Below, one piece after another: positions 18,112 through 19,466 of a stretch of DNA of 64,000 nt (positions are counted from its first letter, which is position 1; each line of letters starts with the position of its first letter). Both the position numbers and the translations under genes were made by a program. Source of the DNA: Agrococcus lahaulensis DSM 17612 (GTDB taxonomy: Bacteria; Actinomycetota; Actinomycetes; Actinomycetales; Microbacteriaceae); assembly GCF_000425105.1 (NCBI RefSeq), contig NZ_AULD01000006.1, positions 62,001-126,000 of the forward strand. Reading direction: 5' to 3'. The notes beneath the pieces are model-generated. The model made no database searches. It was not told the origin of the DNA and saw only the letters and a program-made list of their open reading frames with translations.

Positions 18112-18372
18112 GTGGCGAACATCAAGTCGCAGATCAAGCGCATCCTCACCAACCAGAAGGCGACCGACCGCAACCGCGCCGTCAAGAGCGAGGTCAAGAC
18201 CGCTGTGCGCGAGGCGCGCAAGGCGATCGCCGCGGGCGACAAGGCCGTGGCGCAGGAGAAGGTCGCCATCGCGGCGCGCAAGCTCGACAAGGCCGCCTCG
18301 AAGGGCGTCATCCACAAGAACCAGGCCGCGAACCGCAAGTCGTCGATCGCGAAGCAGGTCGCCGCGCTCTGA
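18112..18372 (+). CDS. rpsT: 30S ribosomal protein S20
   Basis: An 86-residue basic, helical protein with the S20 pattern ([10 protein letters not shown] near the N-terminus and [13 protein letters not shown] at the C-terminus). It is a primary 16S rRNA binding protein of the 30S body. The start is GTG 18112, with AGGA seven bases upstream. It has its own promoter and a strong terminator. Confidence 0.98.
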
Positions 18373-18388
18373 TCGAGCCGCACACCTC

Positions 18389-18420
18389 GAAGGCGGGGGC
18401 CCCGACGGGCCCCCGCCTTC
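18389..18420 (+). terminator. rpsT terminator hairpin
   Basis: A perfect 14-bp stem (GAAGGCGGGGGCCC and its complement) with a CGAC loop starts 17 bases after the rpsT stop. No T run follows. Confidence 0.85.
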
Positions 18421-18432
18421 GTCGTCCCGCCC

Positions 18433-18784
18433 GAGTGTCGCCTCCCGCGCCCGAGTGGTCAACTCCGCGCTTGAGTTGTCAACTCCGCGCCTGAGTGGTC
18501 AACTGCGCGCCTGAGTGGTCAACTCCGCGGCTGAGTGGTCAACTCCGCGCCTCAGTGGTCGACTCCGCGCCTCCGTGGCGGCCGCGGTGATCGAGTGGCG
18601 GCCGCCGTGATCGAGTGGCGGTCTCCGGGATCGAGTGGCGGCCAACGGGAGGGGCCCGCTTCACCCGCGGGAGCCGCCGCTCAGCCGCGGAGGCGCCACT
18701 CACCCACGGAACGCGCCACTCACCTGCCGGACGCGCCACTCACCTGCCGGAGCCGCCACTCACCTGCGGGCGACGCCGCCACTC
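18433..18784. repeat. 20-bp-period tandem array with an orientation flip
   Basis: Eleven forward-facing units start at exact 20-base steps (18433, 18453 ... 18633). The typical unit is GAGTGGTCAACTCCGCGCCT; the rest of the unit drifts towards GAGTGGCGGCCGCCGTGATC. After a centre near 18650 (GGGGCCC) the core continues as its reverse complement, CCACTC, at 18697-18701, 18717-18721, 18737-18741 and 18757-18761, again 20 bases apart. The array fills the 422-base gap between the convergent rpsT and cyclase genes. Twenty is not a multiple of three and every frame differs, so it is not coding. It resembles an array of binding sites or a large foldback. No function is known to me. Confidence 0.9.
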
Positions 18785-18794
18785 GACGCGGCGA

Positions 18795-19466
18795 TCAGTC
18801 GAGGAAGGCGACCGCCCGCACCGGGGCGCCGTCGCCGGCGAGGCGCAGCGGGAAGAAGCCGACCCGCACCCGCGTCGGCAGCGCCTCGAGGCCCCGCACG
18901 TTCTCGACGATGAGGCCGTCGGCGCCGAGCACGACCTCGTGGACCGGGAACGACGCATCCGCCGTGCCCGTCGGGTCGGGGCTCAGCGTGTCGACCGCGA
19001 GCACCCGCATGCCGCGGCGCTGCAGCTCGAGGGCCGCATCCGCCGCCATCCCGGGGTGGCGCAGCGCCCGGTCGGTGCCGAAGTGCGCGGCCCAGCCGGT
19101 GTCGACGAGCACGATGGGCGGCACGCGCTCCGGCAGCGCTCCCGCTGCCTCGAGCCGGCTCCAGTCGTACACCTCGCCGTCTGCGAGCCCCGGCACGCGC
19201 ACGACGAGCGCCTCCCCCACGAGCTCGTCGAGCGCGACGTCGGCCATCGAGCGGCCGCCCTCGATCGAGTGCGAGGGGGCGTCGACGTGCGTGCCCGTGT
19301 GGGAGCCCATCCGGATGCGCGCGACGTCGACGCCGTCGGCGGTGACCGTGAGCGCGGGCTCGATCCGCACCGCGGGGTCGCCGGGGTAGACCTGCATCCC
19401 GTCGACGACGGGATGGCTCAGGTCGACGAGCGTGCCGCGAGCATCCCCCGAGGTGTCAGCGCGCAT
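18795..19466 (-). CDS. cyclase family protein (kynurenine-formamidase-like)
   Basis: A 223-residue metal-dependent hydrolase of the cyclase/KynB fold. The metal-binding motif S-H-T-G-T-H-V-D-A-P-S-H is present near residues 54-66, together with D-L-S-H-P-V at the N-terminus and a late V-D-T-L-S-P-D. Family members hydrolyse amides such as N-formylkynurenine or isatin, or cyclise substrates. ATG 19466 overlaps the permease stop by 11 bases. As last gene of the ureohydrolase/NCS1 operon it may act on a nitrogen-rich heterocycle or its ring-opened product. The substrate is an inference. Confidence 0.85.
   Translation of the reverse strand: MRADTSGDARGTLVDLSHPVVDGMQVYPGDPAVRIEPALTVTADGVDVARIRMGSHTGTHVDAPSHSIEGGRSMADVALDELVGEALVVRVPGLADGEVYDWSRLEAAGALPERVPPIVLVDTGWAAHFGTDRALRHPGMAADAALELQRRGMRVLAVDTLSPDPTGTADASFPVHEVVLGADGLIVENVRGLEALPTRVRVGFFPLRLAGDGAPVRAVAFLD

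Follow-up and report, generated by a model that had tools for sequence, protein, structure and literature searches.

Introduction

REP sequences and REPINs are described as short palindromic motifs, often in inverted pairs, which are mostly extragenic and lie between convergent or co-directional genes. In the REP/RAYT systems they are accompanied by a linked enzyme gene, which is flanked by the repeats and is said to co-evolve with them (PMC3733652, PMC8266576). Among nucleases, the EDxHD homing endonuclease I-Bth0305I seems to form a dimer on a target site of nearly 60 bp (PMC3943268), VsrA, a DUF559 protein of Caulobacter, is reported to cause an SOS response when cells lack the methyltransferase ScmA (PMC12907096), and the MTES_1575 domain has been described as a novel Vsr-type REase in a paper on HEPN (PMC3710099). 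AbiEi antitoxins, in turn, are described as binding inverted repeats in their own promoters (PMC7319586).

The window analysed here is a stretch of 64,000 nucleotides from Agrococcus lahaulensis DSM 17612, and it contains an array of 20-bp units which belongs to a family of similar arrays in the genus. Like REP sequences, the Agrococcus arrays are dispersed, mostly extragenic and often made of inverted pairs, and as in REP/RAYT systems there is an enzyme gene flanked by the repeats. This is so for 16 of 16 genes of what we call clade A. More widely, among 64 homologues there are 40 whose 400-bp flanks share an exact inverted word of at least 14 bp, and among 177 control genes from the same loci there are 2; the 64 include orthologues, which are not independent. 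The linked enzyme is however a DUF559/Vsr-like nuclease and not a Y1 HUH transposase like that of the RAYTs, and a search of the linked gene alone (34 members) gave no match to the Y1 family. The units moreover follow each other in tandem at 20 bp, in arrays that reach about 44 copies, and their doublets show no covariation that would suggest hairpin recognition. Without a Y1 transposase as their linked enzyme, the arrays are not members of the REP/RAYT systems. We think it rather probable that the dispersed arrays belong to a gene that is single-copy and vertically inherited and that encodes an AbiEi-like and DUF559/Vsr-like nuclease, in a REP/RAYT-like arrangement with an unrelated enzyme, and that the window array is a gene-less (“solo”) member of this dispersed family of inverted tandem arrays.

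The array in the window

Table 1. Features around the array, in positions of the window.
Feature	Position	Strand	Evidence
rpsT (ribosomal protein S20), left convergent neighbour	18112..18372	+	Pfam PF01649, 1.8e-27
GC-rich palindrome 3' of rpsT, likely rpsT terminator, outside the array	18388..18421	.	sequence reading
Forward half, eleven 20-bp units with GAGTGG-type core	18433..18652	+	sequence, TRF, core count
Centre GGGGCCC with degenerate reverse cores at 18657 and 18677	18653..18695	.	sequence
Reverse half, CCACTC cores at 18696, 18716, 18736, 18756 and 18779	18696..18784	-	sequence, TRF, core count
Putative cyclase, right convergent neighbour	18795..19466	-	Pfam PF04199, 5.5e-29

A reading made from the sequence only had described eleven units with a GAGTGG-type core at exact 20-base steps, followed after a GGGGCCC centre by at least four units with the core CCACTC, and this two-sided, non-coding layout in the intergenic gap between rpsT and the cyclase gene is borne out (Table 1). 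The forward units start at 18433, 18453 and so on to 18633, and ten of the eleven have at most one mismatch to the core; when the 428-bp segment between rpsT and the cyclase gene was shuffled 2000 times by dinucleotides, the best register had at most 3 such cores. In the reverse half the first four exact cores are 20 bp apart and the fifth follows after 23 bp, and the two degenerate cores adjoin the centre. The test is weaker for this half, where the 4 cores in register, all exact, are equalled in 3 of the 2000 shuffles if one mismatch is allowed. A register of 5 reverse-type cores that read CAACTC lies inside the forward units and is separate from the reverse half. TRF gave periods of 20 for the array. 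Over the window as a whole there are 19 core pair matches against 8.8 +/- 2.8 expected, and the array holds 15 of them, three of these in the CAACTC register.

The cores had been said to be constant while the other 14 bases drift. This holds only in part, as the 14 bases consist of related sub-blocks and do not drift freely: forward units 2-7 closely resemble TCAACTCCGCGCCT, a CGG type is seen in units 8-11 (in units 8-10 CGG stands directly after the core and GATC at the end), and unit positions 13-15 (CCG) and 17 (G) are nearly invariant. Units 2-7 also contain, at 18460-18565, a second register of CAACTC/CGACTC, so that each of them is itself an imperfect dyad (GAGTGGTCAACTC), and other motifs of the array family look similar to this dyad.

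The two neighbours are confirmed as a convergent pair, and the sequence-only reading was right to see neither a promoter nor a coding repeat in the array. A sigma-70 promoter scan found 0 promoters, and a coding repeat was rejected, as none of the 47 arrays listed in our placement sample contains a called gene (one overlaps a gene end by about 20 bp).

The array family and its placement

The window's own genome (G000) has about a dozen such arrays, placed on contigs C1, C2 (three), C3, C5, C7 (two) and C8, with further places of the GAGCGG type on C1 and C3 (two). A pattern of three GAGTG repeats matches 19 of 60 relatives, namely 18 of 24 genomes of the genus (own genome included) and 1 of 36 others. 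The sequence-only reading had been staked on similar arrays being found in related genomes, and arrays of the GAGTGG or GAGCGG type do occur in 16 of the 24 Agrococcus genomes; among its candidates a repeat element without a name came closest, now that a family of such arrays has been found.

Pairs of the form GAGTGG-N14-GAGTGG number 16-92 in 15 of the 24 genomes and 0-4 in the other nine. The eight genomes without a clade-A gene have 0-1 of them and 2-6 GAGCGG pairs, the latter at about the level of the reversed-pattern control there. The ninth, G006, has 4 GAGTGG pairs and 53 GAGCGG pairs, which means that its arrays persist with a changed core. By our reading the reversed-pattern control counts for the GAGTG and GAGTGG searches are probably inflated, as GTGAG also occurs in arrays. 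The GAGTG matches in G021 (2) and G009 (5) were rejected as arrays of the clade-A type; four inspected loci are GACTGGTCACTCGT-type arrays or their complement, some with a GAGTGGTC variant.

The longest run, about 44 near-identical GACTGGCGGCTCCCGTCGCT units at G012:C1:1554920-1555807, is probably a recent expansion. Several contigs end in or beside arrays (G011:C5 and C7, G019:C5, C7 and C16, G000:C7), and array counts in draft genomes are therefore lower bounds. A search for relatives in viral contigs gave 2 weak partial matches. In a genome of another family (G054), six tandem GAGTGGGACGTCCGCACGSC units with one inverted partner were seen (L001:1501-1650, on C2), with no DUF559 gene beside them. 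None of the four DUF559 genes found in that genome carries the motif, and its GAGTGGGACG array is linked to none of them.

Placement was studied in 47 arrays among those listed in eight genomes, which are a part of the total in these genomes; 46 have at least three units. Neighbouring genes were called by a codon-position score and not by a trained gene finder. It had been proposed to check whether such arrays lie between convergent genes, and there they are enriched, but this is no rule. The gene pairs around the 46 solo arrays are 24 convergent, 20 co-directional and 2 divergent, compared with 36, 221 and 60 among 317 other neighbouring pairs of the same loci (Fisher p 1.2e-9 for convergence, or 6.5e-9 against the 157 pairs with gaps of at least 50 bp). 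The forward half comes first in 34 of the 34 two-sided arrays of the sample; one array of G006 outside it (L005) has a mixed order of halves.

It had also been asked whether the position on the chromosome is special. The arrays of G001 are clustered (p ~0.007), and 22 of 30 loci of the doublets of G021:C1 (described below) lie within 1.1-2.2 Mb, one third of the chromosome (Rayleigh p ~0.002); the arrays of G017 show no significant clustering, and a bias in relation to the terminus is uneven from genome to genome. Sites where a nucleoid or replication protein would act as a bridge or a barrier, as proposed earlier, would fit the 20-bp period and the uneven placement in two of these genomes, but not the third. 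The motifs also differ between species and 8 of the 24 genomes have no GAGTGG-type arrays, and a variable, often absent repeat argues against a housekeeping role, which predicts conservation. We found nothing in favour of an organiser or barrier, and of all explanations weighed here this is the one to which we give the least credence. Sites for some binding protein, as the sequence-only reading also had it, are on the other hand plausible.

The linked nuclease gene

A gene of some 300 amino acids is enclosed by a forward and a reverse array in both G000 (L065) and G022 (L010). Pfam assigns it to MTES_1575 (~5e-6, below the curated cut-off) and DUF559 (~2e-5, above the cut-off). We define clade A as homologues with at least 59% identity to the own-genome copy, and its gene is present in 16 of the 24 Agrococcus genomes, intact in 15. 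G006 is a natural case of gene loss: at G006:C1:216615-217492 the gene is broken into two overlapping fragments, one with a TGA, and arrays of the GAGCGG type persist. In the eight genomes without clade A the best identities to the G022 protein are 55, 51, 51, 51, 37, 33, 33 and 32%. Homologues with at least 60% identity to the G022 protein are single-copy and are intact in exactly the 15 genomes with at least 16 GAGTGG pairs. Arrays of either type thus go with the clade-A gene in 16 of 16 genomes and occur in 0 of the 8 without it, a split that has a chance of 1.4e-6 if the genomes are independent; they are related, so p-values of this kind overstate their independence.

Array units stand on both sides of the clade-A gene in 16 of 16 genomes, although G008 and G017 have only 2-3 units on each side, and G000 and G019 have only that number on one of the two. 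The GAGTGG units mostly face inward to the gene from both sides, G017 being a departure, and the broken gene of G006 (L195) still has 13 forward units to the left and 7 reverse units to the right. The linked gene lies on contig C5 of G000, outside the window, which is why the sequence-only reading had no nuclease in it.

The locus is conserved as well. Four upstream neighbour families are identical in 15 of the 16 clade-A genomes, and in G000 the contig ends there. PolA is encoded downstream in 16 of 16, with a thioesterase called in between in 9 of 16. The order in G012 is an NAD(P)-type oxidoreductase (which we read as the glutamate-synthase small subunit), pyruvate kinase, an ANTAR response regulator, the nuclease gene, the thioesterase and PolA. 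Of the eight other genomes, three (G009, G023 and G021) carry a copy at this polA locus that has diverged (44-47%), and the conservation of the locus, diverged copies included, indicates that the gene is vertically inherited there. Directly past the reverse array at the contig end of G000:C5 there is an IS3-type integrase fragment (L065:7139-7453; rve_3, 1.9e-13).

Homologues with E <= 1e-30 are found in 169 of 299 Microbacteriaceae genomes. The inverted words of at least 14 bp in the flanks are shared out by group as follows: 13 of 16 clade-A genes, 12 of 16 other Agrococcus copies of 42-60% identity, 4 of 7 Agrococcus copies below 42% and 11 of 25 in other genera, which leaves 24 of the 64 homologues without a shared inverted 14-mer in their 400-bp flanks. 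The Agrococcus copies of 29-38% identity that we examined have no tandem arrays of this kind. Taken together, the linkage of gene and arrays is well supported.

The protein has an AbiEi-like N-terminus and a DUF559/Vsr-like nuclease domain related to the EDxHD homing endonucleases. Among the 34 proteins that were aligned, out of 62 of full length, 33 match MTES_1575 and 30 match DUF559 (E <= 0.01), and 16 columns are invariant, including E192, D224, E235, Y236, H241 and D250; by our reading the invariant residues would correspond to the EDxHD motif. PDB matches were 3hrl (1.2e-5) and 3r3p, a “mobile intron protein” (0.025), which we take to be I-Bth0305I. The PADLOC model of AbiEi matches the N-terminus in L222 (2e-9) and L181 (2.5e-4), with no match in L206.

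The likeness to I-Bth0305I lies in the nuclease domain and in the invariant E/D/H/D residues, and the target of nearly 60 bp that is described for this enzyme is close to the 55 bp of the doublets below (PMC3943268). Unlike the EDxHD homing endonucleases, our gene is free-standing in an intergenic gap with no interrupted target gene seen, and it remains at a fixed locus with many gene-less arrays across the chromosome. It lies in neither an intron nor an intein, and is for that reason not a classical homing endonuclease. It has the DUF559 PD-(D/E)XK domain in common with VsrA, but VsrA is tied to a cytosine methyltransferase motif, and the available part of its description mentions no repeats (PMC12907096). 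The AbiEi-like N-terminus, seen in two of three proteins, recalls the AbiE type IV toxin-antitoxin systems, but here it is fused to a nuclease domain, and no AbiEii nucleotidyltransferase toxin was found among the five polA-locus neighbours in G012; the gene order is similar in other genomes.

The N-terminus leads to the strongest alternative, in which the arrays would be operators. The AbiEi-like domain would autoregulate its gene through the flanking motifs, and the dispersed arrays would be by-products, extra binding sites for titration or regulation, with no nuclease action. The promoter binding described for AbiEi antitoxins (PMC7319586), the PADLOC matches and the inverted motifs beside the genes all agree with this. 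We nevertheless consider it unlikely, as the units stand on both sides of the gene, the 3' side included, only 2 of the 46 listed solo arrays lie between divergent genes, where promoters would be, and the nuclease residues are invariant. Autoregulation alone does not explain homogenisation across sites either.

Different genes, different motifs

Several diverged genes have other motifs at their flanks, and these motifs are dispersed mainly in the same genome or in sister genomes. At the polA locus of G021 the gene stands between GATTGGCCACTT-type units, with GATTGGCCACTTCCTGCGG in its flanks; of this motif there are 27 copies (at most 2 mismatches) in G021, 20 in G009, 2 in G008, 1 in G023 and 0 in 20 genomes; one of the G009 copies is directly beside the polA-locus gene of that genome. 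At a second locus, c21/c25, where a gene was seen in G021, G009 and G023 (32 homologues placed), the gene of G021 has GACTGGTCGCAGTTGCACC-type units at its flanks. Of GACTGGTCGCAGTTGCACC (at most 2 mismatches) there are 79 copies in G021, 12 in G009, 10 in G023 and 1 in G018, and none in 20 genomes. In G009 and G023 the c21/c25 genes themselves have GACTGGTCACTCGT-type and GACTGGCCACGAACGG-type repeats beside them. The matching of motif to gene is thus only partial, with GACTGGTCGCAGTTGCACC present in G009 and G023 although their own locus genes have other flanks. Further repeats, of 32 bp, flank the genes G006b and G010c, and repeats of 31 bp are found at the polA-locus gene of G023. In another genus, the gene of G326 has GAGTGCGCAACTCGCGG at both flanks, and the motif recurs at 11 further loci of that genome, three of which are inverted pairs (at most 1 mismatch each); a search of ten other genomes gave a single copy in one.

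Much of this is organised as doublets. In G021, 26 of 30 adjacent forward and reverse copies are exactly 36 bp apart and form an inverted doublet of 55 bp, the 17-bp middle of which occurs in either orientation (15 and 11 of the 26). All 13 centres of two-sided arrays in G017 and G008 measure 55 or 35 bp, and 21 centres in G000, G001, G004, G011 and G012 measure from 24 to 329 bp. This suggests that doublets may have come first and that the arrays would be expansions of them.

The 55-bp doublets fold well. For the window array the fold is better than that of all 100 shuffles (z -3.2), and this, together with the enrichment between convergent genes, is what could be said for elements that act in RNA, where transcribed arrays would form hairpins that stabilise or terminate convergent transcripts. 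Covariation in the 26 doublets of G021 does not exceed that of shuffles (both sides changed in 2 pairs, 1.9 expected), which speaks against a hairpin-selected RNA or DNA and fits better with recognition of the double strand. A scan for T-tract terminators found none inside the window array; its only match was inside rpsT, and the palindrome 3' of rpsT was without a match. The Rfam scan gave no family at gathering score, the sole match being RF00106 upstream of the array, with 21.3 bits against 47. As rpsT already has its own hairpin, and as the linked gene would be left unexplained, we find a role in RNA very improbable.

Concerted evolution of the arrays

The site between the cyclase gene and rpsT is occupied in the window, in G001, G018, G004 and G012, and in L071, L072 and L073, where the contig of L072 ends within the array. 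In L078 the gap has no such array, and in L077 the region is rearranged and there is no rpsT. At the orthologous gaps that were compared there were no clean empty sites and no target-site duplications, as features of MITE or foldback elements, and several orthologous sites are shared. The gap in L206 and L200 was rejected as an empty site, as there is a different motif there. A distant DUF559 gene directly after a cyclase homologue was observed in a Microbacterium MAG (L080:10731-11657). It was rejected as an ancestor of the window site, because its flanks share only an inverted 12-mer, with no long inverted repeats, and there is no rpsT in the locus.

Units are more alike within a genome than at the same site in different genomes. 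Their similarity is 0.702 between different sites of one genome (50 pairs), 0.617 when one site is compared between genomes (73 pairs) and 0.604 for pairs that share neither (373 pairs), with L073 counted as G014 and sites with fewer than three units dropped; the first two differ with p=1e-4, and with p=0.005 for solo arrays only. The arrays thus show concerted evolution. Between the solo units and the units that flank the gene in the same genome the similarity is 0.739 against 0.596 expected (permutation p=5e-5, over the 15 genomes with a solo locus in the set, which is all but G022). The own flanking units are the best match for the solo arrays in 8 of the 15 genomes, the second in 3 and the third in 1, but only the fifth in G018 and the ninth in G016 and G004. 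In one gap that is orthologous between G021 and G009, the two genomes have different motifs, each of which matches the flanks of the gene next door.

Homogenisation as such could be the work of ordinary recombination. The arrays would then be minisatellites in 3' gaps, shaped by RecA-dependent recombination and slippage, and the nuclease gene would merely sit in one of them. The strong differences in copy number, the pure run in G012 and the intergenic position of all examined arrays are what one would expect. We see this as less likely even than the operators, as it leaves the units on both sides of every clade-A gene unaccounted for, together with the other motifs beside diverged genes, whether at different loci or in another genus, which are dispersed in the same genomes. 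The doublets of fixed length (55 bp in G021, 55 or 35 bp in G017 and G008) are unlike minisatellites, and so is the constant order of the halves, apart from the one mixed array of G006.

A proposed mechanism

The explanation that we prefer is thus one in which the linked nuclease acts on the arrays. The protein would recognise a motif of about 20 bp, probably as dimers on inverted pairs, and its nuclease would nick or cut the arrays. Repair from other arrays would then copy unit sequence between sites and alter the copy number, and such copying could keep the family uniform within a genome while species diverge. The arrays would be an old, tolerated population of repeats, either selfish or domesticated. 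Binding and cutting by the protein, and homogenisation driven by it, are what we infer from the sequences. Among the arguments against this explanation are that ordinary recombination between the repeats could homogenise them, with the protein adapting, and that G006 has kept its arrays with a broken gene.

On balance we lean, by a little, towards a new class of intragenomic elements, in which each AbiEi-DUF559 nuclease of the Microbacteriaceae would have a motif of its own and drive the concerted evolution of its cognate sites. These sites would be 55-bp doublets that expand to 20-bp tandem arrays across the chromosome, the nuclease and its motif would co-evolve, and the whole would be kept by vertical descent. 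The literature that was searched, which is mostly non-subscription, gave no report that ties DUF559 or MTES_1575 nucleases to dispersed repeats.

Conclusions

The sequence-only reading of the window is partly supported: its description of the array largely holds, and the results suggest that behind it is an apparently undescribed partnership of an enzyme and its repeats, which keeps the repeats alike within each genome. The protein family is common in Microbacteriaceae, and we found no described role for it in repeats. REP/RAYT systems pose the problem of how a single-copy enzyme and a scattered population of repeats stay together, and if these nucleases act on their cognate repeats they would be a second, independent solution to it, the system reinvented with a homing-type nuclease. 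Natural pairs of enzyme and motif with diverging specificity would then allow a direct test of concerted evolution by targeted breaks.
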